Positions 435 to 28,175 of a stretch of 33,711 bases of DNA are shown piece after piece (position 1 is the first letter of the stretch; each line of letters starts with the position of its first letter). A program made the position numbers and the translations under genes. The notes beneath the pieces are model-generated. The model was not told the origin of the DNA and ran no database searches. It saw nothing but the letters and a program-made list of their open reading frames with translations. Origin of the DNA: a virus; IMG/VR virus record IMGVR_UViG_3300042465_004636, positions 1-33,711 of that record; one strand, 5' to 3'.

Positions 435-671
435 ATGAGTGCTAAAACAGCTAAGAAAATGCGAAAAATGCTAGATCTTAAGAATACTGAGAAAAAAGAT
501 CTACGCATCAGACCTAATGAACCATTAGTAGACGGTAAGTTAAAATCTACCTACACCATGATGAACACCGACCCAGCTAAACGTAAGTATAAGGAAGTTA
601 AAAAAATCCTTAAGAATAAAGATTTGTATGATCTTCATATGAAGAAAGCATCGGAGAGAGAAAATGAATAA
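435..671 (+). CDS. Small basic protein of unknown function
   Basis: A 78-residue Lys/Arg-rich protein starting MSAKTAKKMRKML. The start at 435 is preferred over an in-frame upstream ATG at 411, because 435 has a GAGG-type ribosome-binding site (427-430) and sits just after the stop of the previous gene (433); the 411 start would overlap that gene. The last 8 bases overlap the recombinase start at 664, suggesting translational coupling. No domain is recognised. The charge would suit nucleic-acid binding and the location suggests an accessory role in recombination, but that is inference only. Confidence 0.7.
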   Translation: MSAKTAKKMRKMLDLKNTEKKDLRIRPNEPLVDGKLKSTYTMMNTDPAKRKYKEVKKILKNKDLYDLHMKKASERENE

Positions 672-1752
672 GCCAGCCGCGAAAGCACCACTAGCTGAAA
701 AGCCAGTCAAGAACAAGTGGATGAAAGATCTTCAATCTTTGGACGGAGCTGTAAGTAAAGAATACAATCCGTTTCTAAGAGAGAATGTTATTCGTTCGAA
801 CTCCCCAAGCTTGAATTGGATTTTCGGTAAAGGAGCTGGTATTCCTATGGGATATTCAGCCATCTTCTTTGGAGAGCCTAAAGCAGGTAAGTCCCTCATC
901 TCGAATCTTTTCGCAGGAGCTTTGCATCAGCAAGACCCTGAAGCTATGGTTATTAAGTTCAATACGGAAATGCGCGAAGAAGGTCAAATGGCTCCTTATT
1001 GGGGTATTGATCAAAGTCGATACATTGCCTATAACGTTAACCAGCCTGAATTGATTTTCGATCGTATCAAGAAAGAAATCAACGAAATGTGTGAAGACGG
1101 AATGCCTCTTAGAATGATCATTATCGATTCTCTACAAGGTATCCAAGGCGTACGCGAAGGTCAAGCCGAAAGCGTTACACAGCAGCAGATTGGAGACAGT
1201 GCCTTAACTATCCAGAAAGGTCTTAAATCCATTCTTCCTATGCTTCGTAAGCATCGTATTGCACTTATCGCTACTTCGCACGTAAGGGCTAATCTGGACG
1301 CTGGAATGTATGGTCCTAAATTGAAAATGGCTGGAGCATGGGCGCAAAAGCACTTTTTCGAATACTTTGTCGAAGTTAAGCGTGACAACTCCAAAGAAGG
1401 GAAAATGGACGCAATCGGTAAAGCCTTCGTAAACGAAGACGTTAAAGACTTTAAAGGTAATCAAGAACGTACAGGTCATAAGATCTACGTTACAATGGCT
1501 GAGTCTTCTACAGGTGTTGCAGGTCGATCTGGAGAGTTTACATTAAACTATACAGAAGGTCTGGTTAATATCCAAGAGGAAGTATTTAACATTGCTAAAA
1601 ACCTTGGTCTTGTAGAACAACCGAATAATCGGACCTATGTTGTGGATGGTAAAACCTTCACTTCTAAGGCTGATTTTTACAATGCTTTAGAGACAGACCC
1701 TGAAATGGCATCGCAAATAGTTGAAAAAGCGTATGCTAGAGATATGAAATAA
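664..1752 (+). CDS. RecA/UvsX-family recombinase
   Basis: A 362-aa ATPase of the RecA fold. The Walker A motif is GEPKAGKS at residues 70-77 and the Walker B strand is MIIIDS at 151-156. A QQQIGDSA segment (about 173-180) and ATSHVR (203-208) follow, at the positions where RecA proteins carry the catalytic-loop and sensor regions. The length is close to UvsX (about 390 aa). The product should form filaments on single-stranded DNA and catalyse strand exchange for recombination-dependent replication and repair. The start overlaps the upstream gene by 8 bases, so it is probably expressed with the two preceding genes. The unit ends before a hairpin/promoter composite at 1767-1819. Family assignment is firm; whether it is closer to UvsX or to bacterial RecA cannot be decided by eye. 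Confidence 0.9.
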   Translation: MNKPAAKAPLAEKPVKNKWMKDLQSLDGAVSKEYNPFLRENVIRSNSPSLNWIFGKGAGIPMGYSAIFFGEPKAGKSLISNLFAGALHQQDPEAMVIKFNTEMREEGQMAPYWGIDQSRYIAYNVNQPELIFDRIKKEINEMCEDGMPLRMIIIDSLQGIQGVREGQAESVTQQQIGDSALTIQKGLKSILPMLRKHRIALIATSHVRANLDAGMYGPKLKMAGAWAQKHFFEYFVEVKRDNSKEGKMDAIGKAFVNEDVKDFKGNQERTGHKIYVTMAESSTGVAGRSGEFTLNYTEGLVNIQEEVFNIAKNLGLVEQPNNRTYVVDGKTFTSKADFYNALETDPEMASQIVEKAYARDMK

Positions 1753-1766
1753 AGTTAAAATAGTTC

Positions 1767-1795
1767 TTGCAAATTCAAGCCTCCGCCTGTATAAT
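1767..1795 (+). promoter_or_regulatory. Sigma70-type promoter (TTGCAA-N17-TATAAT) nested in an inverted repeat
   Basis: The -35 TTGCAA (1767-1772), a 17-base spacer and a perfect -10 TATAAT (1790-1795) predict transcription from about 1802, giving an 18-base leader to the ATG at 1820. The -10 lies in the loop of the inverted repeat 1777-1785/1807-1815. Confidence 0.85.
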
Positions 1796-1819
1796 CACCA
1801 TATACACGGAGGCTTTCTT
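1777..1819 (+). terminator. Hairpin that may end the recombinase unit and also covers the next ribosome-binding site
   Basis: AAGCCTCCG (1777-1785) pairs perfectly with CGGAGGCTT (1807-1815) across a 21-base loop and runs into TTTCTT, a weak U-tract. In RNA coming from the recombinase gene this is a long-loop terminator-like hairpin. It also pairs the GGAGG Shine-Dalgarno sequence (1808-1812) of the gene starting at 1820. RNA started at the nested promoter lacks the left arm, so its ribosome-binding site is free. The pairing is seen directly; termination or translation control is inference. Confidence 0.55.
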
Positions 1820-2104
1820 ATGACAAATCACAAAATAACTACAACAAATAGAATTTACTTCGTACAGTATGGTTACTTATTCTCTATGACAATTAATGAC
1901 GCTATTAAATTTGCCCAGAACGCTCTTGAAGGTGCTGGTCACGATCTTAGCGATAAAGTATTAACTCCAAGTGTTAAGCAGATTAAATTTAGAGAAATTA
2001 AAAGAGGAACTACCACTATTAAATACGGTAAGAAGTTTGTTGAAGTTTCTCACATCTTAGACTGGACTAATGAAGATTGGAGCTATTTTCTTTCTGGTTT
2101 CTAA
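1820..2104 (+). CDS. Unknown early protein, 94 aa
   Basis: No family is recognised. The product is a mixed-charge soluble protein with no membrane segment and a Trp-rich C-terminus (DWTNEDWSYF). The start at 1820 has a strong CGGAGG ribosome-binding site 7 bases upstream; an internal ATG at 1886 lacks one. It is the only gene between its own strong sigma70-type promoter (1767-1795) and the next promoter (2113-2141), so it is effectively a one-gene early unit. Strong individual promoters of this kind in phage early regions often drive host-takeover or anti-defence proteins, but nothing in the sequence identifies this one. Confidence 0.75.
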   Translation: MTNHKITTTNRIYFVQYGYLFSMTINDAIKFAQNALEGAGHDLSDKVLTPSVKQIKFREIKRGTTTIKYGKKFVEVSHILDWTNEDWSYFLSGF

Positions 2105-2112
2105 AATAACTA

Positions 2113-2141
2113 TTGACTTAGAATTTTAGATCGAGTAGAAT
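2113..2141 (+). promoter_or_regulatory. Sigma70-type promoter (TTGACT-N17-TAGAAT)
   Basis: The -35 TTGACT (2113-2118), an exact 17-base spacer and -10 TAGAAT (2136-2141) lie directly after the stop at 2104. The predicted start near 2148 gives a short leader containing AGGAGA upstream of the ATG at 2161. Confidence 0.8.
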
Positions 2142-2160
2142 TGACGCAACAGGAGAATTT

Positions 2161-2391
2161 ATGAACGAAACACTTAAAACCGCACTGATCAAATACGCAA
2201 ATCAAGACCTAGCACTAGCTCGTAAAAAAGGTAACATGAGCATCGTAGGTACTAAGGGTGGACCTACGCACATATCTTACGATAAGTCTACTAAAACCTA
2301 CGGGATTAGAAACGGATCTAATGTATTTGAAGTTAATCAAGACGAAGCAGTTCAAATAGTTGTTTCCCTTTATAACATTGTGGAGGACTAA
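2161..2391 (+). CDS. Unknown small early protein, 76 aa
   Basis: A soluble 76-residue protein with no recognised domain. The start at 2161 follows an AGGAG ribosome-binding site. A promoter at 2113-2141 drives this gene and the next two (2393-2575, 2584-2733), which follow at 1- and 8-base spacings and so form a three-gene mini-operon of very small products. No signal peptide, cysteine cluster or membrane segment is visible. Confidence 0.72.
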   Translation: MNETLKTALIKYANQDLALARKKGNMSIVGTKGGPTHISYDKSTKTYGIRNGSNVFEVNQDEAVQIVVSLYNIVED

Positions 2392-2392
2392 T

Positions 2393-2575
2393 ATGTTTAG
2401 AATCAACAGAATCAGAAAATTCACAGACGGAAACCTTAAAGGAATTGAGGTTGAAGAGTCGGTAACTGCCGAAACAATCGAAGAGGCTAAAGACAAAGCG
2501 ATGCTATTTAAGTGCGACCATCCAGTAGGTGGTAGTCCATACGAAGTTATTTGGTCTAGAATTACAATCGATTAG
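2393..2575 (+). CDS. Unknown small early protein, 60 aa
   Basis: A 60-residue product starting MFRINRIRKF. The reading frame is open further upstream to an ATG at 2360, but 2393 is preferred: it has a GGAGG ribosome-binding site (2382-2386) and begins one base after the previous stop (2391), whereas the upstream start would overlap by 32 bases. The N-terminus is basic and the middle acidic (EVEESVTAETIEEAKDKA). No family is recognised. Confidence 0.68.
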   Translation: MFRINRIRKFTDGNLKGIEVEESVTAETIEEAKDKAMLFKCDHPVGGSPYEVIWSRITID

Positions 2576-2583
2576 GAGGTTTT

Positions 2584-2733
2584 ATGATTAAGTATTTTGT
2601 AGTAAAATCTGGCGACAAATACAGGATTATCCTAACTGGAGTCCAGAACACTAAAAATTGGGAAAGTTGTATTGTAGCTGCTTTCGATACATATTCTGAA
2701 GCTGAGTTGGAATTATTTAAAAGAAGATCATAA
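2584..2733 (+). CDS. Unknown very small early protein, 49 aa
   Basis: A short reading frame starting MIKYFVVKSG and ending FKRRS. It has a perfect AGGAGG ribosome-binding site at 2574-2579, 4 bases before the ATG, and begins 8 bases after the previous stop. The product is soluble with alternating hydrophobic residues suggesting beta strands. The strong ribosome-binding site and operon position support a real gene despite its length. No function can be assigned. Confidence 0.65.
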   Translation: MIKYFVVKSGDKYRIILTGVQNTKNWESCIVAAFDTYSEAELELFKRRS

Positions 2734-2739
2734 TAGTTG

Positions 2740-2768
2740 TTGCATTTTTTAACGATTTCCTATATTAT
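2740..2768 (+). promoter_or_regulatory. Sigma70-type promoter (TTGCAT-N17-TATTAT)
   Basis: The -35 TTGCAT (2740-2745), a 17-base spacer and -10 TATTAT (2763-2768) start 6 bases after the stop at 2733. The expected start near 2775 leaves a leader with a CGGAGG site before the ATG at 2789. Confidence 0.78.
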
Positions 2769-2788
2769 ATTCCTATACGGAGGCAAAC

Positions 2789-3097
2789 ATGGAAAATAAA
2801 TTACAAGTCGCAAACACAATTTTAGAGCAGCTAGGTGGGAATCGCTTTACTATGATGACAGGAGCTAAGAACTTTGCTGGCGGTCATGACTATCTTTCTT
2901 TTAAGATACCTTCTAATAACATGGCTAGAGTTAGCCACGTAATTGTTAGATACAACGAAGGTCAAGACCTTTACGAAATGAAGTTCTTATCTATTAGAGG
3001 AGTTAAGTCTAAAGACGTAGCTTCGTTCGAAGGTGTATTTTTTGACCAGCTCCAGTCTATTTTTACTAGAGTAACTGGACTGTATACAAAATTGTAA
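2789..3097 (+). CDS. Conserved small phage/plasmid-type protein, 102 aa
   Basis: The N-terminal pattern ILEQLGGNRFTMMTGAKNF (residues 12-30) followed by a DYLSFKIPSNN segment and a C-terminal FTRVTGLYTKL recalls a small conserved protein seen in many phages and plasmids; its role is unknown to me. The protein is soluble with no membrane segment. The start at 2789 has CGGAGG 6-7 bases upstream. It is a single-gene unit between its own promoter (2740-2768) and the promoter of the DUF932 gene (3116-3143). The family recall is from memory and unverified. Confidence 0.75.
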   Translation: MENKLQVANTILEQLGGNRFTMMTGAKNFAGGHDYLSFKIPSNNMARVSHVIVRYNEGQDLYEMKFLSIRGVKSKDVASFEGVFFDQLQSIFTRVTGLYTKL

Positions 3098-3115
3098 AAT
3101 AAAGTAAAATAAGTG

Positions 3116-3143
3116 TTGCAATAGATTTAAAAATCTGTATAAT
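3116..3143 (+). promoter_or_regulatory. Sigma70-type promoter (TTGCAA-N16-TATAAT) with a dyad in its spacer
   Basis: The -35 TTGCAA (3116-3121) and -10 TATAAT (3138-3143) are separated by 16 bases. The spacer carries AGATTT (3123-3128) and AAATCT (3131-3136), a two-fold symmetric pair that could be an operator, though such AT-rich symmetry can arise by chance. The predicted start near 3150 gives a 30-base A-rich leader to the DUF932 gene. Confidence 0.8.
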
Positions 3144-3180
3144 AACTGTAACGAAACAAAAACAAACAAAGGAATTAACA

Positions 3181-4116
3181 ATGGCTCACCAAATTGAAGA
3201 AATGATGTACGTAGGCGCAACTCCTTGGCATAACCTTGGAAACCGATTTGTAGAAGCTCCTAAAACTCTTGAAGAAGCTATGGTAGCTGCAGGTCTTAAC
3301 TGGACTGTATCTACAAAAGAACTTTTCCTAGCTGATGGAACTAAAGCTCCAGCTAATGCAACTGTTCGCGATACCGACCAGTCGATCCTTGGAGTAGTTG
3401 GGTTGAAATATAAACCTCTCCAAAATAAGAATGCTTTTGACTTCTTTAACCCGTTTATTGATTCTGGAGCTGCAACTATCGAAACTGCAGGATCTCTTAT
3501 GCAAGGTAAGCGTGTTTGGGTACAGGCTAAAATTACCTCTGATGTTGACGTAGTTAAAGGAAATGACATTATCGAAAGATACATCCTCCTTTCTAACTCG
3601 CATGACGGAACAATGGCTGTAAGAGCTGGATTCACACCGCAACGTGTAGTTTGCCAAAACACTCTTACAATGGCACACCATAACGGAGAGTCGCAGCTAA
3701 TCCGAATTAAACACGGACAGAATGTTGAGCAGAACGTAGCTGCAGTTTCCCAGATTATGAATCTTGCTAATAACTCTTTTGAGACAACTCTTGAGCAATA
3801 TCGAATGCTTGCTAATAAAGAGATTAACGCTAAAGATCTTGAGAAGTTTGTTAAATTGGTGTTTAAGCTTGATGAAGATAAAGAGAATTCTGGTAAACGC
3901 CTTATGAATAACATTATCCCACTTTTCGAAACTGGTCGTGGAAATGACATGGCTGAGATTAAAGGGACTTATTGGGCAGCTTACAACAGTATCTCTGAGT
4001 ACTTGCAATATGAAAAAGGTACTGATTCTGAAGCTAGACTAAACAACCTTTGGTTTGGAACTTCTAAGACAACTCTTGAAAACGCTCTTGCAATCGCAGT
4101 AAAAATGGCAGCTTAA
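3181..4116 (+). CDS. DUF932-family (TIGR03299-type phage/plasmid-like) protein
   Basis: This 311-aa protein has the DUF932 signature: PWHNLG near residue 15, the EA...AAGLNWTV segment (about 34-44), an ILGVVGLKYKPLQN..AF block (about 68-85), and YILLSNSHDGT..V with VVCQNTL further on (about 134-162). Members occur widely in phages and plasmids near replication and recombination genes; the biochemical role is not established to my knowledge. It is an independent transcription unit with a strong promoter (3116-3143) and an intrinsic terminator (4120-4147), which suggests high early expression. The ribosome-binding site is AAAGGA about 7 bases before the ATG. Confidence 0.88.
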   Translation: MAHQIEEMMYVGATPWHNLGNRFVEAPKTLEEAMVAAGLNWTVSTKELFLADGTKAPANATVRDTDQSILGVVGLKYKPLQNKNAFDFFNPFIDSGAATIETAGSLMQGKRVWVQAKITSDVDVVKGNDIIERYILLSNSHDGTMAVRAGFTPQRVVCQNTLTMAHHNGESQLIRIKHGQNVEQNVAAVSQIMNLANNSFETTLEQYRMLANKEINAKDLEKFVKLVFKLDEDKENSGKRLMNNIIPLFETGRGNDMAEIKGTYWAAYNSISEYLQYEKGTDSEARLNNLWFGTSKTTLENALAIAVKMAA

Positions 4117-4119
4117 AAC

Positions 4120-4147
4120 AAAGTGGGGAGAAATCCCCACTTTTTAT
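4120..4147 (+). terminator. Intrinsic terminator after the DUF932 gene
   Basis: AAAGTGGGG (4120-4128) pairs perfectly with CCCCACTTT (4135-4143) across a 6-base loop, followed by a T-run. The next promoter's -35 begins at 4148, so terminator and promoter abut. Confidence 0.92.
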
Positions 4148-4176
4148 TTGACAGATTTAATAGATTCCTGTAGGAT
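4148..4176 (+). promoter_or_regulatory. Sigma70-type promoter (TTGACA-N17-TAGGAT) for the replication operon
   Basis: A consensus -35 TTGACA (4148-4153), a 17-base spacer and -10 TAGGAT (4171-4176) lie directly behind the terminator. The predicted start near 4183 precedes AGAGAGG and the ATG at 4197. Confidence 0.85.
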
Positions 4177-4196
4177 ACCTAAAAGAGAGGTTTTTT

Positions 4197-4385
4197 ATGA
4201 AAGTTAACTTATATTGGTCAGATAACCACAAATTAGCAGTAGACTCTGAAAACGCCCATCTTTTCGAAGAAGAATACCATTACGAAGTTGATTTAGAAAC
4301 TGTTAGAGAGTTTGAAGAACTTAAACAAAGAAGTAAAGATTTGCAAAAGAAACTATACGCTATTTATACGGCTAAAAACGGATGA
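4197..4385 (+). CDS. Unknown small protein, 62 aa, first gene of the replication operon
   Basis: A 62-residue acidic protein with a coiled-coil-like Glu/Lys/Leu-rich C-terminal half (about residues 33-56). The start has an AGAGAGG ribosome-binding site. Its stop overlaps the next start (ATGA at 4382-4385), so it is translationally coupled to the sigma-like gene. A partner or regulator of that protein is conceivable from the coupling but is not shown. Confidence 0.72.
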   Translation: MKVNLYWSDNHKLAVDSENAHLFEEEYHYEVDLETVREFEELKQRSKDLQKKLYAIYTAKNG

Positions 4386-5356
4386 GCGCAGAACTATTAC
4401 GCTTTCCAGTAAAGGAAATTGAAATGACTAGACAAATGTCTTACGATGATGATTTTGAGATGTTAACGCTCAGGCATGAATATCTCAAAAAAATCAAAGA
4501 TCCTGAATCTATCAATATTAAACCTTTCAAATACTTAGCCAAATCCACGGCTAGAATTATGTATGAAAAATGCCAAGCTAACTTTCAAAAAGTTGGATTT
4601 GATGTTTCAGACATAGAGTCTATTTCGAATGTATATCTTTTTGCTTATTTAGGCGTTTACAGTTTTGAAGTAAATCCAGCATCTAAAGATAGGTTTATCC
4701 AGTCTTTTCTAGATAAAACAGGTAAAGAACCTAACGAGAAAGATATTGAAAAAGCTGAGAAAAATACTATTATTAATTTCCTAAGACAGAAACTCCACCA
4801 TTGTTCTAAAGTGTGTGAGCGTAAGTCTAGGAATATCGTAGGTGCTCGTAGTGTAAAATATGTATTCGCCTATACAAAAGACTCTAAGCCGTCTCACCCT
4901 AGCAATATTGTTCAAGACTATAAAAAACACGGCTATAGAAAAGTAACTCATAAAGAACTGGTGGAAGCTAAGGAAAATAGTAAGAAAAACTCTACGCAAG
5001 ATCTTACAGATAAAGACGGTTTTAAGATTGTAGAAATTCAAGACTACTCTATGAACATGTGCAGTTTCAAAGACATGGAAGCTGAAGATGGATATGGCTT
5101 GGGCTGGGAAGAGTTTGTTCAAAAAGAACCGATGGTTGGATATTACATGGAAGAATGTGCTGAATACTTGTCCGATCCTGAAGAGAATTTAATTAAGAGA
5201 CAGGACGAGATCTTATCGATGAGCGATAAGGATTTCTTTAGTAATTTAGAGGAAAAACAAAAACGCTCTATGCTAAGGAAATTTATAGCATCTAATAAAG
5301 ATAACACTAGACTATCTGAAGAATTAAAAACCGCAAGGTCTTTTCTAAAGAAGTGA
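4382..5356 (+). CDS. Possible divergent sigma factor / phage transcription factor
   Basis: A 324-aa protein. Residues 48-96 (KPFKYLAKSTARIMYEKC.., then DVSDIESISNVYLFAYLGVYSFE) follow the pattern of sigma70 region 2: a helix that contacts RNA polymerase, then an acidic D.eDl...g...la...f block. Residues 128-151 (NFLRQKL..) would be where the promoter-melting helix lies. Near the C-terminus DPEENLIKRQ (265-274) resembles the start of sigma region 4, followed by a Leu/Lys/Arg helical tail. The similarity is a pattern match by eye only. If real, it would be a phage-encoded sigma that switches RNA polymerase to late genes, consistent with its early location and the lack of clear sigma70 promoters for the minus-strand structural genes. 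Otherwise it is an unknown replication-region protein. Confidence 0.45.
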   Translation: MSAELLRFPVKEIEMTRQMSYDDDFEMLTLRHEYLKKIKDPESINIKPFKYLAKSTARIMYEKCQANFQKVGFDVSDIESISNVYLFAYLGVYSFEVNPASKDRFIQSFLDKTGKEPNEKDIEKAEKNTIINFLRQKLHHCSKVCERKSRNIVGARSVKYVFAYTKDSKPSHPSNIVQDYKKHGYRKVTHKELVEAKENSKKNSTQDLTDKDGFKIVEIQDYSMNMCSFKDMEAEDGYGLGWEEFVQKEPMVGYYMEECAEYLSDPEENLIKRQDEILSMSDKDFFSNLEEKQKRSMLRKFIASNKDNTRLSEELKTARSFLKK

Positions 5357-5365
5357 TGGTATAAT
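5357..5365 (+). promoter_or_regulatory. Extended -10 promoter element TGGTATAAT just before the ATG at 5371
   Basis: TGG plus a perfect TATAAT (5360-5365) forms an extended -10; no convincing -35 is visible. Transcription would start at about 5371-5372, which is the ATG itself. Confidence 0.5.
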
Positions 5366-5370
5366 ACAAT

Positions 5371-5793
5371 ATGGATTTTAAAGATATTTTCAACCATCAT
5401 TTAAAGCTGTATATCTCTTCAGGTGCTAAAGTTTCTGAAAGGCTTAGTTTTCTGACACTACTTTTAATAGAACTTAGAAAAAATGGGTTTGATGTAGAAG
5501 AAAGTAGAAGAGCCGTATGTTCTAATCTTAAGTTGAGTTTTACTAGTGAATTAATAGATCGAGTGTATGAGCTATGTTTTCTTAGAGATATCGATAAAGC
5601 TATTGAACTAACCGTGGAAGAAGAAGTAAATATTGAGACGGTAGAAGATACTCAGGTCGTCTCTAATCCTATAGAGTCAGATCCTGACCATGCTCAACCT
5701 GACGACGTTCCAAATGTTGATCGAGAAGTTTACAAGAATAGAAAAGCCGTTATAGATTATGAGTTTTTAAAATCTGTAGGATATGAAGAATGA
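5371..5793 (+). CDS. Unknown protein preceding the helicase, possibly translated from a leaderless mRNA
   Basis: A 140-aa protein. The N-terminal half (about residues 1-75) is helical with conserved-looking Leu/Ile positions; the middle (about 78-115) is acidic and low-complexity and ends in a KNRKAVIDYEFLKSVGYEE tail. No Shine-Dalgarno sequence precedes the ATG, and an in-frame TAA at 5362-5364 rules out any start upstream of 5365. An extended -10 ends only 5 bases before the ATG, so a leaderless transcript is possible. The stop overlaps the helicase start (ATGA at 5790), so the two are coupled. A helicase-loader or accessory role is suggested only by the neighbour; no loader motif is seen. 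Confidence 0.65.
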   Translation: MDFKDIFNHHLKLYISSGAKVSERLSFLTLLLIELRKNGFDVEESRRAVCSNLKLSFTSELIDRVYELCFLRDIDKAIELTVEEEVNIETVEDTQVVSNPIESDPDHAQPDDVPNVDREVYKNRKAVIDYEFLKSVGYEE

Positions 5794-6899
5794 GTGAACC
5801 AGTAAAAACCAATTCCCTCACGCTTGCTCTTGAAAAGGCGTTAATCCAGTCTAATGAATTAGACGTTAAAACTCATAAGATCAAAGAATCTAGAACAAAC
5901 GCTCAATTTGAAAAGATCACACAAAACGAAGCTAAAAAACAGGCAATGGATAACCTAAACCTGTTTAGTAAGTCTCCTGAATACTATGAAAATTTAGGTA
6001 AGGAAAATGATGAATATTTGGATGACGCAGCGGTTAGTCCTGAATTTCTAACTGAGGATTTTGGTGATGTAGTTCCTTTCTTTAGGAAAAACCTTATCCT
6101 TATAGGAGCTAAGTCTGGAGACGGTAAGTCTACAATTGCTGCAAATATTGCTTTGGGAGTTATCCAACAGAATAAGCATTGTATAATGATTACGAATGAA
6201 GAAGTTGATACAGACGTTTTTAACCGTATTACATGCTTACTTAAAGGTTGGGCATATAATAACCATAAGAAGTTCACTAAAGATCAGGCTAAAATATTTA
6301 AAGATAACTATGCTTTATTAGGTAATAGACTCTCTGTAATTAACGATATGAGTAACGGTACTGGTGGAACTACCACTACAATGCAGGGTTTAAAAGGTAT
6401 TTTAGATAAAGTCGTAGCTTCGACACTAAAACCGGGGTGCATAATCATCGACTATTTCCAGAACGTCAGTGAAGACATGGATTCCATCGGAGATAGTGAA
6501 TACTCTGTTCTTAAGAAAGTATCCTCTATGCTGGATAAATACCGTAAATATGTTGGATGTCCAATTGTAATCATGGTGCAACTTAAAGCTCAATCAGAAG
6601 AAGGTTCGGACTTTAAGTTTAGAATTGAACATTGTAAGGATATTTTTACCAGATCTACGTGTGCAATGGAAGTGAAAGCAGATAGAGAAAATAGAAGAAC
6701 TATATTTACCGTCCATAAAGCAAGATTTGCCGAATCGCTTGGAAAGGATATTCACGTAGGTTTTGATAGAGGAAGATATGTGAAATACGACCACGCTTTC
6801 AGAACTAAAGCTAGACTGGACATGGATAAGAAAAAACAAGAGAGTATAACAGCCAATGTCTTTAACACAAATAAAGAATATGAAAAAGCCAGCACATGA
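5790..6899 (+). CDS. DnaB-like replicative helicase ATPase domain
   Basis: A 369-aa RecA-fold ATPase. Walker A is GAKSGDGKST (residues 106-115). The strand CIMITNEE (131-138) supplies the acidic residues found at the catalytic-Glu position of DnaB. Walker B is CIIIDYFQ (217-224), closely matching the DnaB IDYLQ pattern, and MVQL (262-265) fits the following sensor strand. Residues 1-95 are a charged helical region, not an obvious DnaB N-terminal collar domain, and the total is shorter than DnaB (about 470 aa). It probably unwinds DNA at the phage fork together with the primase encoded next. A recombination ATPase of the same superfamily is a less likely alternative. Confidence 0.8.
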   Translation: MSEPVKTNSLTLALEKALIQSNELDVKTHKIKESRTNAQFEKITQNEAKKQAMDNLNLFSKSPEYYENLGKENDEYLDDAAVSPEFLTEDFGDVVPFFRKNLILIGAKSGDGKSTIAANIALGVIQQNKHCIMITNEEVDTDVFNRITCLLKGWAYNNHKKFTKDQAKIFKDNYALLGNRLSVINDMSNGTGGTTTTMQGLKGILDKVVASTLKPGCIIIDYFQNVSEDMDSIGDSEYSVLKKVSSMLDKYRKYVGCPIVIMVQLKAQSEEGSDFKFRIEHCKDIFTRSTCAMEVKADRENRRTIFTVHKARFAESLGKDIHVGFDRGRYVKYDHAFRTKARLDMDKKKQESITANVFNTNKEYEKAST

Positions 6900-7752
6900 T
6901 CTTTTTCTAGATCTATTTTTTAATAAAGGAGAGGAGATTTGCGTCTCTCCTAATAAATTTGGCTACTACAGCGTAAGCCAAGACGAACTATTAAAAGATA
7001 GTTTTACGATCGTAAGCTGCGGTGAGAAAATGTATACAAATGAGATATCTAAGAAAGATATAAATCTTTGCAGTATTAATCCTGTAATGGGCGCTCGTCG
7101 AGATGAAAACGTAACAGCATATAGATCTTTTCTGGTTGAGATCGATTTTGGAAGTTTAGCTGAACAGAAAGCATATATCGATGCAATTGAAATGCCTTAT
7201 TCTATATGTACTTTTTCAGGTAATAAATCACTACACTACGGAATAGTTTTAAGCGAAGACTTGTCTCCATCAGTATGGAAAAACACGGCTGCATGGATTT
7301 TAGCTATCGCCAATAAAGCAGATCAGCAAACTAAGAATCCTACGCGGTGTATTAGATTCCCAGATAACGTCCGTAAAGACGGTAAAATGCTTAATCAGTC
7401 TTTGGTTGACTACAAGGGTAGGGTCAATCCTGAAGATCTGTTTACGTGGCTTTCTAGGTGGTCTCATCTTAATCCAGCTCTCAAGAAGAAGGTTAGAAGT
7501 ACCGTAACTATCCAAGTTGGAGATCTAAATATCCCAGAATGGATTGTCGATAAGATTAAAAATGGTTTCGACGAAGGCGGAAGAAATAAAGGCTGGTTTT
7601 GTATATCGATTGGACTAGCTAAACTAGGATGGTCTGAAGACCAAATACTAGATACTTTAGGTGGATATTTTATCGAAGACAGGGATTTTAAAGAAAAAGA
7701 ATGGGAGCTTGCTATTAAAAGCGGCTGCAAGTTTATAGAGAGGATGGGATAA
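6856..7752 (+). CDS. Archaeo-eukaryotic-type primase (AEP/PrimPol-like) with PriCT-like C-terminus
   Basis: Up to 298 aa. AEP-type motifs are visible: the acidic strand FLVEIDFG with E95 and D97; SGNKSLHYGI (121-130), matching the sGxKSxH motif; and TRCIRFPD (163-170), typical of the third motif area. Residues 235-298 (GGRNKGWF..., then EKEWELAIKSGCKF) resemble the PriCT helical domain found behind AEP primases. The product should make primers for replication at the fork set up by the adjacent DnaB-like ATPase. Start choice is uncertain: 6856 has GAGAG 11 bases upstream and overlaps the helicase gene by 44 bases, while an in-frame ATG at 6880 gives a smaller overlap but has a weaker site. Confidence 0.72.
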   Translation: MSLTQIKNMKKPAHDLFLDLFFNKGEEICVSPNKFGYYSVSQDELLKDSFTIVSCGEKMYTNEISKKDINLCSINPVMGARRDENVTAYRSFLVEIDFGSLAEQKAYIDAIEMPYSICTFSGNKSLHYGIVLSEDLSPSVWKNTAAWILAIANKADQQTKNPTRCIRFPDNVRKDGKMLNQSLVDYKGRVNPEDLFTWLSRWSHLNPALKKKVRSTVTIQVGDLNIPEWIVDKIKNGFDEGGRNKGWFCISIGLAKLGWSEDQILDTLGGYFIEDRDFKEKEWELAIKSGCKFIERMG

Positions 7753-8330
7753 TGAAAGAGTTAAACGCCAGAAAAGTCAACCACGATAATAGTTCGTTAT
7801 TCGTTGACGACGGTATTAATATTAAAGATAGGATTATCCATCTATTTGACGATATTGATTCTGACAGTGTAGGCAAGGTTATTAAAGGTGTACAGCTTAT
7901 GCTAGCTGCTAATAAAGAACCTATCGATATTTTCATTAGTAGCTTAGGTGGAGATCCTTATTCAGCTTGGGGAGCTGCTAATTTCATCACTTTACAGAAA
8001 GACGTATTGATCAGAACTCATGCTATGGGACCAGTGATGTCAGCCGCTACTATTGTATTCTTATCTGGAGATGAAAAGATTTGTTATGAAAACTCTGTAT
8101 TTATGTTCCATACAGTGAGCGATTCTACTGCTGGAAAATTTACTGTAGAAATAAAAGATTGTTATGATGAATGCAAGCGAATTCACGAAGATATCTGCGA
8201 ATTCTATGGAAAATATACAAAAACAACATCTAAAGAATGGGCTAAGCTATTGAAAGCTAACGACCTATATATTAGACCAGAACAAGCTCTTGAAATGGGG
8301 ATAGTTGACAAAATTTTAAAATCCATGTAA
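7752..8330 (+). CDS. ClpP-like serine protease (family S14)
   Basis: A 192-aa protein of ClpP length. The sequence IDIFISSLGGDPYSAWG (58-74) matches the ClpP oxyanion-loop region. The nucleophile is Ser97 in GPVMSAAT, the base is His120 in VFMFHTV, and Asp171 in NDLYIRPEQALEMGIVDKI completes the triad in the same arrangement as bacterial ClpP. No chaperone (ClpX/A) gene is nearby. It overlaps the primase stop by one base (TAATG) and so belongs to the replication operon. Possible roles: working with host Clp chaperones to degrade host or defence proteins, or as a phage maturation protease. The replication-operon location favours a non-capsid role, but this is inference. Confidence 0.85.
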   Translation: MKELNARKVNHDNSSLFVDDGINIKDRIIHLFDDIDSDSVGKVIKGVQLMLAANKEPIDIFISSLGGDPYSAWGAANFITLQKDVLIRTHAMGPVMSAATIVFLSGDEKICYENSVFMFHTVSDSTAGKFTVEIKDCYDECKRIHEDICEFYGKYTKTTSKEWAKLLKANDLYIRPEQALEMGIVDKILKSM

Positions 8331-11116: not shown

Positions 11117-11145
11117 TTGACTCAATTAAGCCTATGGGATAATAT
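11117..11145 (+). promoter_or_regulatory. Sigma70-type promoter (TTGACT-N17-TAATAT) nested in a hairpin
   Basis: The -35 TTGACT (11117-11122), a 17-base spacer and -10 TAATAT (11140-11145); GATAAT at 11138 with a 15-base spacer is an alternative. The -10 lies in the loop of the inverted repeat 11128-11136/11150-11158, the same layout as at 1767-1815. Confidence 0.7.
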
Positions 11146-11163
11146 GTCTCATAGGCTTTTTAA
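11128..11163 (+). terminator. Terminator-like hairpin enclosing a promoter -10 box
   Basis: AAGCCTATG (11128-11136) pairs perfectly with CATAGGCTT (11150-11158) across a 13-base loop, followed by a T-rich tract (11157-11161). In RNA read from the upstream gene this is a plausible intrinsic terminator. Here the ribosome-binding site (TTGGAGA, 11164-11170) lies outside the stem. Confidence 0.65.
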
Positions 11164-11174
11164 TTGGAGAACAC

Positions 11175-11489
11175 ATGACAATTTACAAATCTGCAGATCT
11201 TCTAAAAATGAAATCCGTGATCGATACAGCTAGAGAAATGTGGTTAGAAGCTTCTAGAAAGGAATTCCAAAAAACTGGCGATAGAGGATCTTGTATCGTA
11301 GGTGACGGAATTACTGTTTACTTTATCCCTCCAAAATGTCGCAAGCCTGTAGAATTCTTTATTATCCGTAGTAACAGCGTAGCTTTTGCACAAGGAAGCT
11401 TACATTATGAAGCTACTATGCAGATCGCTCTTGACTATTTAAAAGCAAACGGTGTAGAATGTCGTTATAACCACGGGAGAATGGATTAA
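11175..11489 (+). CDS. Unknown protein, 104 aa
   Basis: A soluble protein starting MTIYKSADLLKMK, with a ribosome-binding site GGAGA before the ATG and its own promoter at 11117-11145. It has a helical N-terminal third, a central beta-like part (SCIVGDGITVYFIPP) and two cysteines near the middle plus one at the C-terminal end. No family recognised. It begins the last early unit before the convergent terminator. Confidence 0.7.
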   Translation: MTIYKSADLLKMKSVIDTAREMWLEASRKEFQKTGDRGSCIVGDGITVYFIPPKCRKPVEFFIIRSNSVAFAQGSLHYEATMQIALDYLKANGVECRYNHGRMD

Positions 11490-12045: not shown

Positions 12046-12071
12046 AAAAGGGAGCGCTTGCTCCCTTTGTT
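12044..12071. terminator. Bidirectional intrinsic terminator between early and late gene sets
   Basis: AAAGGGAGC (12047-12055) pairs perfectly with GCTCCCTTT (12060-12068) across a 4-base loop. The minus-strand RNA meets a long U-tract (A-run at 12044-12049), and plus-strand RNA a shorter one (TTTGTT). It lies between the convergent stops at 12045 and 12078. Confidence 0.92.
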
Positions 12072-24730: not shown

Positions 24731-27514
24731 TTAGATTATGTACCAGTTTATTCCATCTGAAATAATTGTAATGTTTTCGAACTGAACTGTAATAGCTAAT
24801 GGAGCTGCATCGATATCTACCGAGTCTAAAGTTTGACTAAGTACAGATTTAATAAATAAACTATTACCTGCGTCAATTTTTTTAATGTTATATACTTTAC
24901 CTTCTACCGCCGTAGCGTCTGGTAAAGTTATAGTAACATCAGATCCGCTATTTGCGACTAAAGCTACATCTTCAACACTTGTTAAAGTGTAGTTTGCAGA
25001 GTATGTATCTATTTGACTAGATCCAACCCCTGAAGTTGAAGAAATAATTACACTATCGGTAGTTTCAGTTACAGATATATTACTACCTGCCTGAATTCTT
25101 CTAAATTGAAATTGATTGGCAACTAAGGTTTTAAATACGTTTGCATCTTTAACCGTACCTAAGTTTGTACCAGTATATGAAGATCCTCCGCCAATACTTG
25201 CAGAGGCAGGAGGTTCTGCTTTAAACGTTAAAACATCTCCAACAATTAAAGCAAACTGAGTTTGAATAGTTAAACTTGCAGTTGCAATAGTTCCAACTTC
25301 TGTATAGTCTGAAGGATTGTTTATTCTAACACCGTTAAGATAAACACCTAAACTTCCAGCTCCAACAGTATATTGCTGTTGAATATCTGAGTTTCTAGCA
25401 TTGAGAGGAATTGTAATATTTGTACCGATCGTAACTGGACCAGTAAATTCATTATCATTCGCTGGAGCACCTGAAACAATAGTAATTATTTCATCATAAG
25501 AAGGGTCATCAAGTCCTGCAAGTACAGCACCGATAGCGTCATCTAGGCGTTTAATAGATCTAGTTAAATTTTCACCGTCTGCTACGATATGGTTTGGAGA
25601 ACCAGCACCTTGAGTATTAACTACTGCAGAGAAAGCTCCACCGATATTTACGTTAGCTGCATCAGTAGTTGTTCCAACTAAATTATTAGTTACAACAATA
25701 GTTCCATTTAAATTATCTACAACAGAGAAATCACTTATAGCATTAATCGCTACAGCCGCTGCCGTAGCGTTTTGAGTAGCTGTGTTACCTGTAACAATAG
25801 CTACTTCAATAGAAAACTTACCACCAATTAAAGGATCTCCGCCTAGTCCGTCTTTATTAAACCAAACATAGTATTCTGAAGAATCATTAGAAGCGTTTAA
25901 AGTATGTGCTTGTCCTGAAGTAATAGAAGCTGCTGCAGGATATGTAAATGTAGTTGCTTCTGCAACTCCAGTTCCATTAGCGTTTGTATAGTCAGGACTG
26001 TCTATATGTTCGGCAGGTGAACCAATATATGTTAAAACATCACTACTTTGATTATCTGAAATCTCTCTATCTTCACCTTGCTCAAGCTCTCCACCAGCAG
26101 CACCGCGAATATAAACACGAGCTAAGCTTCCGCCATTATCTTGACGCAAGAACAACCAAAGAATATCTTCGTTAAAAGGAACTGACTCTCTAGTTGCGAT
26201 TTTTACATGACGATCGGTACTAGGAGCTGCATTTGTTTGATAGGTTCCCCAAGCGTATTGAGACTGTGCTCCGCCCGAACCTGTAGAAGCATAAGGATAG
26301 ACTTCTGTTAATGTAACTTGAGATGCAGAGTCTACTGATAGGATTTTGAAATAACGAGTATCTAGATCAGAAGCTAGTTTAATATAATCGCCAGCGATTA
26401 CGTTAGTTGTCCAAGATACAGCTCCGACTGAAACTACAACGCTAGATGCGTTAACATAAATCAAACTTGGAATAATATTTACTCCACGAATAAGTTTAAT
26501 ATATGCTACTTGATTATCAGAAAGAGTAACATGAGTAGAAACAGAGTTAGCTAATAGTTTATAGCTAATTCTAGATGCAATAGTATTAAAGAGAATATCC
26601 GAATCCCAATTTAATCTACCACCTATAGAACTAGAATGGAAAATAGATCCATTACCAGTCATCATTGTATTAGCAAGATCTAGTCTTAACTTAACAATAG
26701 ATCCACCAGCATTAATATCATACCAATAAGGAGTGCCTTTGATCTCCTTAATCATAGACATTACGGCGTCTTTCCATTCCTTTTCATTTTTAATTTGCTT
26801 ATCACCGCCTCGGAAAGGAGATGTTGAAGAAGTACTCTTCCAGAAGTTTTCAGAACGACCTTCAGCGTGGTTCGTCCATGGATAAACATATGTAGGGTCT
26901 GGAGTCGCAGATCCTGCAGTACCAAGCCTGTTTAATAGAGGTCTGTGATCTTCGACCGAAAGAACGTTATTGGCGGCGTCTGTTTCAATAACAGCTAGCG
27001 GAAGTACGTTTAATGCCCAAATAGAAGACGTGATGATGAATTTATATTTAAGGATAATGGCGGCTGGAACAGTTTTCGTTAATTCTGATTTACTCGATGG
27101 ATTCCAGAAATATGCCTGACTGGTAGTTGTAGGGTCAATAACTCTTTCGTATTCTAAACCAACATAGTTTAGGGCGCCGGGGACGAATGAACCTGAAACT
27201 CTAGTATTGGTATTTGAGTTTAATGTTTCGTTAGCTGTTCCAACTGGAACTGTATAGAAAGTGCCTGATTCTAATGAGTTACCGTGTAATACTGCTGAGT
27301 CAGCTACAAGTACTTGTAATCCCGTAGCAGAAGAGCCTACGGCTCCTGTCATATTTAACTCAAAACCATTGATGAAATATGATTTACCTTGACCAGTAAC
27401 GAGACCTTTTAAGAGTTCGTCAAAGTCAGCACTTACAGCAGATTCTAAAGCCTTAATATCAGGTACATTCAATCTTTGTTGGTTTAAAAAATTTTGTTTT
27501 CTACGAACAGACAT
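24731..27514 (-). CDS. Large baseplate-proximal fibre protein, 927 aa
   Basis: The N-terminal SVRRKQNFLNQQRLNVPDIK with a helical region to about residue 40 suggests baseplate attachment. The central part has beta modules: AGDYIKLASDLDTRYFKILSV-type (about 375-395) and a DAAN/VNIGG-type module (about 600-650). Residues about 692-767 repeat the small protein at 21324. The C-terminal 90 residues (ANYTLTSVEDVALVANSG, VYNIKKIDAGNSLFIKS, NITIISDGINWYII) form a knob domain common at phage fibre ends. Stop and start overlap the HNH gene by 14 bases. AGGAT precedes the ATG. Confidence 0.8.
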   Translation of the reverse strand: MSVRRKQNFLNQQRLNVPDIKALESAVSADFDELLKGLVTGQGKSYFINGFELNMTGAVGSSATGLQVLVADSAVLHGNSLESGTFYTVPVGTANETLNSNTNTRVSGSFVPGALNYVGLEYERVIDPTTTSQAYFWNPSSKSELTKTVPAAIILKYKFIITSSIWALNVLPLAVIETDAANNVLSVEDHRPLLNRLGTAGSATPDPTYVYPWTNHAEGRSENFWKSTSSTSPFRGGDKQIKNEKEWKDAVMSMIKEIKGTPYWYDINAGGSIVKLRLDLANTMMTGNGSIFHSSSIGGRLNWDSDILFNTIASRISYKLLANSVSTHVTLSDNQVAYIKLIRGVNIIPSLIYVNASSVVVSVGAVSWTTNVIAGDYIKLASDLDTRYFKILSVDSASQVTLTEVYPYASTGSGGAQSQYAWGTYQTNAAPSTDRHVKIATRESVPFNEDILWLFLRQDNGGSLARVYIRGAAGGELEQGEDREISDNQSSDVLTYIGSPAEHIDSPDYTNANGTGVAEATTFTYPAAASITSGQAHTLNASNDSSEYYVWFNKDGLGGDPLIGGKFSIEVAIVTGNTATQNATAAAVAINAISDFSVVDNLNGTIVVTNNLVGTTTDAANVNIGGAFSAVVNTQGAGSPNHIVADGENLTRSIKRLDDAIGAVLAGLDDPSYDEIITIVSGAPANDNEFTGPVTIGTNITIPLNARNSDIQQQYTVGAGSLGVYLNGVRINNPSDYTEVGTIATASLTIQTQFALIVGDVLTFKAEPPASASIGGGSSYTGTNLGTVKDANVFKTLVANQFQFRRIQAGSNISVTETTDSVIISSTSGVGSSQIDTYSANYTLTSVEDVALVANSGSDVTITLPDATAVEGKVYNIKKIDAGNSLFIKSVLSQTLDSVDIDAAPLAITVQFENITIISDGINWYII

Positions 27515-28175
27515 ATTTAATCCTATTGCCTTTTTTAAGATTATCTTCAGCTTTTAAAAATTGTAAGTTACTGTAATGATTTAATTTTATTAGATCATTC
27601 TCACTCTTAGCAAAAGACACTGGTATTTTATGATCAATATGAACTACGTATTTACCATGTTCATAAACTTCTCCATAATTATTATAGAAAGTTATAATTA
27701 GATGATCGTATAATTGTTTCCAATTTTCTACACCTAGTATTTCCTTAGTCTTAGACGACCTTATCAGTTGTTTATTTTCAAAACCTCTCTGAATCAATCT
27801 TCTGATATTTTTACTTAGCTTATAGATAGGATCTTTAACTATCCTATCTGTGTGGTATTTTTTAAAATAAGCATTTACACTATCATTTTCATCTAATCTT
27901 CTTTGTCTTCTGTATAAATTAACCTTATCTTTATTTTTTCTTTGATAATCTAAGCGTTTTTTATTAATAATTACTTTATTTTTTAAATATTTTATATTGT
28001 TACAGTTTATACATGTCTTAGCTTTAACATCCCACTCTCTTCTGCTAATTCCGAAATTATCTAGTAATTTCCAAGACTTACAGGTACAGCATTTTTTATA
28101 TTCACAACTCTCAAAAAAAATATGTAAAACTCTTCTATTTTTCGGTGTAGTTGAGATTTGTAATTGAATTTCCAT
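27501..28175 (-). CDS. Free-standing HNH endonuclease
   Basis: A 224-aa protein. A zinc-ribbon-like cluster CCTCKSW (29-35) with CINCNN (55-60) precedes a basic helical region (60-140). The HNH core is VHIDHKIPVSF (178-188) followed by NLQFLKAEDNLKKGNR (203-218), the order expected of HNH homing endonucleases. It lies inside the late operon between structural genes, with a 14-base overlap onto the next gene. No Shine-Dalgarno site precedes the ATG, but a TATAAT lies at 28183-28188. Its Lys/Ile/Asn-rich composition differs from neighbouring fibre genes, consistent with a mobile gene. Confidence 0.88.
   Translation of the reverse strand: MEIQLQISTTPKNRRVLHIFFESCEYKKCCTCKSWKLLDNFGISRREWDVKAKTCINCNNIKYLKNKVIINKKRLDYQRKNKDKVNLYRRQRRLDENDSVNAYFKKYHTDRIVKDPIYKLSKNIRRLIQRGFENKQLIRSSKTKEILGVENWKQLYDHLIITFYNNYGEVYEHGKYVVHIDHKIPVSFAKSENDLIKLNHYSNLQFLKAEDNLKKGNRIKYVCS

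Follow-up and report, generated by a model that had tools for sequence, protein, structure and literature searches.

Two short segments of the 33.7-kb virus record analyzed here (the window) probably each represent a compact, insulated gene start, in which a promoter of the sigma70 type is interleaved with an RNA hairpin. According to this interpretation, which draws on the sequence and on folding models, the left arm of the hairpin would be located ahead of the transcription start, in the spacer between the –35 and –10 elements, and the right arm would fall within the leader. RNA arriving from the upstream genes would carry both arms and form the hairpin, which would hide the Shine-Dalgarno sequence of the downstream gene (strongly at site 1, weakly at site 2) and would also cause termination where a good U-run follows it (site 2; doubtful at site 1). 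RNA initiated at the nested promoter would be devoid of the left arm, could not fold in this way and would be translated. With the read-through RNA locked or ended and the promoter's own RNA translated, both the timing and the strength of the gene's expression would be set solely by its own promoter.

Site 1 (1767–1822; the features of both sites lie on the plus strand) follows a UvsX/RecA-like recombinase gene (664–1752; PHROG 97 UvsX-like recombinase, E = 4.8e-27). Only 14 nt separate the stop codon of this gene from the –35 element, and the recombinase transcript would enter site 1. The promoter is sigma70-like, TTGCAA-17-TATAAT, and is interleaved with the hairpin AAGCCTCCG...CGGAGGCTT; the –35 element (1767–1772), the left, anti-Shine-Dalgarno arm within the promoter spacer (1777–1785), the –10 element (1790–1795) and the right arm (1807–1815, followed by TCTT) were all found at the coordinates given in the initial annotation. 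The hairpin (1777–1815) was predicted to have 15 base pairs, a 2-nt bulge, a 7-nt loop and a free energy of –18.4 kcal/mol (z = –6.75), and none of 200 shuffled sequences folded as well. The –10 element had been assigned to the loop of the hairpin. While it does lie between the arms, it is not simply in an open loop, because an inner stem, TGTATA (1788–1793) paired with TATACA (1801–1806), takes in part of it; the expected start, at about 1802, falls within the right strand of the inner stem. This inner stem had been overlooked, as had the role of the right arm as ribosome-binding site of the next gene (1820–2104; 94 aa, ATG at 1820–1822), whose Shine-Dalgarno sequence GGAGG occupies 1808–1812.

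The claim that the same layout occurs again at 11117 proved correct, as promoter and hairpin are nested at site 2 in the way they are at site 1. The site 2 promoter, TTGACT-17-TAATAT, spans 11117–11145 (–35, 11117–11122; –10, 11140–11145), with a start expected at about 11151. Its hairpin (11128–11158) was predicted to contain 14 pairs, including G-U, around a loop of 3, with a free energy of –18.3 kcal/mol. In the predicted fold, the lower stem extends to 11121–11169, so that the left strand CTCAATTAAGCCTATG covers 11121–11136 and the right strand CATAGGCTTTTTAATTGGAG, whose main arm ends at 11158, covers 11150–11169. The U-run (11157–11161) is contained in the latter strand, and the foot of the stem reaches the Shine-Dalgarno sequence GGAG (11166–11169) of the downstream gene (11175–11489; 104 aa, ATG at 11175). 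At both sites the left arm is located upstream of the –10 element and would thus precede the start position that we infer, and the two sites have AAGCCT/AGGCTT in common. The 94-aa and 104-aa products gave no Pfam or PHROG match, hence no transposase was seen downstream, and homologs of the two genes were found neither among the viral contigs nor among the phages. Because the 1820 and 11175 genes are not similar to each other, a copied gene-plus-leader module was ruled out.

We compared the two sites with the rest of the window. Other promoters of the window look alike in having TTGACA or TTGCA preceded by an A/T-rich stretch, and this shared appearance speaks for the reality of the promoters at sites 1 and 2; promoter use, a start near 1802, repressed translation and some termination are what we infer from sequence and folding models. 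Among the 16 inverted repeats of the window (arms of at least 8, with at least 3 G/C), sites 1 and 2 are the two most stable, and they are the only ones that sit in intergenic gaps with a promoter across them. When the whole leaders were shuffled with preservation of dinucleotides, 2 of 2000 shuffles folded as well as the native leader in each of the two cases; the count was between 187 and 1915 of 2000 in five further promoter-led leaders taken from the window. It would be hard to reconcile these values, the presence of two sites in one genome and the recurrence of the layout elsewhere (see below) with an AT-rich promoter that adjoins an accidental inverted repeat, an explanation to which we attach hardly any weight, even though the lack of conservation at the site 1 locus in relatives would suit it. 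The initial judgment that the arrangement is unlikely to be due to chance is therefore supported.

To which extent the hairpins would act on translation or on transcription appears to differ between the sites. Opening of the site 1 Shine-Dalgarno sequence was calculated to cost 15.3 kcal/mol in read-through RNA versus 4.8 kcal/mol in the promoter's own RNA (from 1802). The corresponding costs for the ribosome site of site 2 were 4.9 and 3.1 kcal/mol, which means that its hiding amounts to only about 2 kcal/mol. A provisional terminator score was –11 at best for site 1 and +13 for site 2, as compared with +31 and +11 for the hairpins of the window at 4120 and 12047, respectively. The sequence after the site 1 stem, TTTCTTAT, has an interrupted U-run; the stem of site 2 passes directly into TTTTT and thus combines the GC-rich stem and the U-run that a terminator requires. 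Site 1 would accordingly be a weak terminator at best, and site 2 a plausible one. Taken together, the opening costs and the scores make site 1 look chiefly like a lock, and site 2 chiefly like a terminator; either way, the gene that follows each site would be shielded from transcription arriving from upstream. Of the proposal that one piece of DNA ends the recombinase transcript and starts the next, the nested promoter is thus retained, whereas termination is, for site 1, the less well supported part. There, the identity of the right arm with the ribosome-binding site offers a second and stronger explanation, in which this site would be hidden in read-through RNA.

The segment 4120–4176 of the window contains a classical terminator, with a 10-bp stem and TTTTT, whose T-run almost touches the next –35 element (TTGACA, 4148); it is a side-by-side counterpart of the nested layout. 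Another hairpin (12047–12068) is terminator-like and readable from both sides; it separates the genes of the rightward block from the tail genes, which run leftward. A gene for a DUF932 protein (3181–4113; E = 3e-55) has a consensus-like promoter, and its leader is long and weakly structured.

None of 50,697 phage records matched the initial 12 kb of the window at the DNA level. The gene order of the window from 664 to 8330 (RecA/UvsX-like recombinase, primase/helicase, Clp protease, and then opposed tail genes) resembles that of Myxococcus phage Mx1, and the recombinases of the two are 42% identical; the window phage appears to be a low-GC relative of Mx1. A structural gene of the window used as bait yielded only short, weak domain matches. 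An Endonuclease VII-like gene (27501–28172; PHROG 1035) is present among the leftward structural genes. Relatives of the recombinase were found in L002 (74%), L003 and L004, in none of which was the site 1 element present at the same locus. In the nearest of them, L002, this place is taken by a classical terminator and, after it, a promoter distinct from it, an arrangement suggesting that insulation is called for at this position. A search of the 104.7-kb L002 contig for nested cases, defined by GC-containing arms of at least 8 bp and a gene-strand promoter, found none. Thus, the conservation of paired arms in relatives, on which the initial annotation had made its proposal depend, is lacking at the locus itself in L002–L004, but paired arms do covary strongly in a dCMP-deaminase family that has the same layout.

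This family was represented by three groups of the viral pattern matches described below, all of which encode the same phage dCMP deaminase. We compared 45 distinct homolog leaders having a recognizable promoter, which in nearly all cases consists of TTGACA/T, a 17-nt spacer and TATAAT, TATACT or TATATT. Most of the 45 leaders (L205–L284, upstream of the match) contain a spacer arm complementary to the ribosome site; L266, L268, L271, L272 and L276 are homologs without the hairpin. The stems vary widely in sequence with the pairing kept, as exemplified by CCTCCTAAACG/CGTTTAGGAGG, CCCCCTCAA/TTGAGGGGG, AAGCCCTTCCT/AGGAAGGGCTT and CCTCCCGATCGGTTA/TAACCGATCGGGAGG, and up to four types of base pair occur at one stem position. 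In 23 leaders with dissimilar spacers, the mean pairing between a spacer and its own ribosome site was 6.0, as against 4.40 (sd 0.23) after swapping, and none of 20,000 permutations was as good, although these permutations overstate independence because the homologs share ancestry. It is nevertheless clear that the arms underwent change on many occasions. The part of the loop that follows the –10 element is also fitted to pair, with 20 of 34 hairpins falling in the best 10% of shuffles; such inner pairing is common to the deaminase hairpins and site 1. In all 32 of 32 hairpin cases, a co-directional open frame ends just upstream, at a median of 7.5 nt before the –35 element.

That arms vary while their pairing is maintained suits base pairing rather than recognition by a protein. 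This bears on the idea that the palindromes are DNA operators, bound across the –10 element by a repressor or an activator. The palindromes do cover the –10 element, and AAGCCT/AGGCTT is found in both sites; however, the outer spans are 39 and 31 bp, which one dimer could hardly both read, and in other phages the arms vary freely with pairing kept. We regard the operator explanation as very improbable, and an operator common to sites 1 and 2 was rejected, as the spacing of the arms differs.

The layout recurs outside the window. The pattern GCCTCC..TATAAT..GGAGGC occurred in 27 distinct sequences among the viral contigs, as compared with 10 when the left arm was permuted as a control; with a –35 element and an ATG added, the numbers were 6 and 1. 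Small as all these numbers are, the matches include near-copies of the site 1 layout in unrelated phages (for instance, L030, L045 and L061). An unbiased sample comprised 80 consensus promoters with GGAGG downstream. In 5 of them, versus 0.59 expected, the spacer contained an arm of at least 6 complementary to the ribosome site. Among the matches to the same pattern in bacterial genomes, the stem extends inward by at least 3 pairs in 15 of 73 cases, versus 1.3 expected; some of these may simply be terminators of the ordinary kind whose loop includes TATAAT by accident. Genes in the bacterial assemblies L319, L353, L323 and L365, mostly of the Clostridia type, carry the layout with long pairing, as exemplified by L365 (GCCTCCTGATTTGTC...GACAAATCAGGAGGC). 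A 221-kb phage (L029) has two nested sites, 574–604 and 3536–3564 (minus strand), both with an extended –10 element (TGGTATAAT) and no clear –35 element.

U-runs are enriched after nested hairpins. The 8 nucleotides following the right arm contain 5.8 T in the deaminase hairpins versus 2.5 after ordinary ribosome sites, and those following the pattern matches contain 4.3 T for the longer stems versus 2.5 for the minimal ones (p = 8e-5). Therefore, termination probably contributes. It could even be argued, in line with the initial annotation, that each element serves first and foremost as an intrinsic terminator that ends the upstream operon and happens to contain the next promoter, with the overlap of the ribosome site as a by-product of compaction. 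This would account for both enrichments, for the 14-pair stem, TTTTT and positive score of site 2, and for the terminator and promoter that L002 has at the same place. We nevertheless think it unlikely, since the score of site 1 is negative, the deaminase clades L217/L218 and L253 keep a long hairpin without a good U-run, and gene e of phage T4 has the layout without one. The enrichment, together with the clades that lack a U-run, suggests rather that both functions, termination and locking, probably occur in varying proportion within insulated gene starts of the type we propose.

We lean, by a modest degree, toward considering these elements a widespread class, as yet without a name, of gene starts that insulate themselves, occurring in phages as well as in some bacteria, with an anti-Shine-Dalgarno sequence in the sigma70 spacer and the –10 element in an inner stem, so that about 50 bases would serve as promoter, ribosome site, lock and, often, terminator. 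Phage genes are arranged head to tail and usually share transcripts, which makes the independent expression of single genes a practical question. If the proposal is true, a promoter, a ribosome site and a lock combined in one short segment, recognizable from sequence alone, would answer this question for some genes. The spacer sequence would then be fixed by the ribosome site, a constraint that predictors of promoters and ribosome sites ignore, and synthetic constructs that require insulated expression would gain a useful part.

In the literature, we found nothing specific worded as a promoter within a terminator or in terms of read-through, although subscription papers were largely outside the search and absence is thus unproven. 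Several known systems share part of the design. In cluster K mycobacteriophages, some of the non-structural genes have SAS/ESAS inverted repeats next to their ribosome sites; these repeats have a fixed consensus, with 17-bp repeats upstream of the ribosome site (PMC3203893). In contrast, the arms vary here, and at site 1 the ribosome site itself is an arm; the 13-bp ESAS sequence GGGATAGGAGCCC is absent at sites 1 and 2. The terminator-then-promoter arrangements at 4120–4176 and in L002 likewise end one unit and start the next, but do so side by side, whereas hairpin and promoter occupy the same bases at sites 1 and 2. IS10 is protected from outside transcription by hairpins. The same applies to IS200, in which hairpins stop impinging transcripts and hide the ribosome site of the transposase (cited in PMC3196728). 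Unlike these elements, sites 1 and 2 are without a transposase gene; moreover, IS200 forms its terminator and the hairpin over its ribosome site as structures apart from each other (PMC3196728).

Gene e of T4, with which soc and gene 49 have been grouped as having an initiation hairpin of this type, is the system that the window sites would resemble in function. Early transcripts that extend into gene e hide its ribosome site, reducing lysozyme synthesis about a hundredfold, and RNA made from late promoters a short way upstream lacks the 5′ strand of the helix (PMC3014915). In the e leader sequence, a –10-like TATAAATA lies between the arms AATACCTTCT and AGGAGGTATT, which include one G-U pair. 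As in gene e, the ribosome site is predicted to pair with an upstream arm in long transcripts, strongly at site 1 and weakly at site 2, and at both sites the nested promoter is placed so that its own RNA would be without the left arm. Unlike gene e, whose late promoter is TATAAATA with no –35 element and is used by a phage sigma factor to make an early/late switch, sites 1 and 2 have promoters resembling those of host sigma70, with a –35 element; they also have the –10 element in an inner stem, followed by a U-rich run. Given these differences in promoter, inner stem and U-run, the window sites would work like T4 gene e without being a case of the T4 late promoter.
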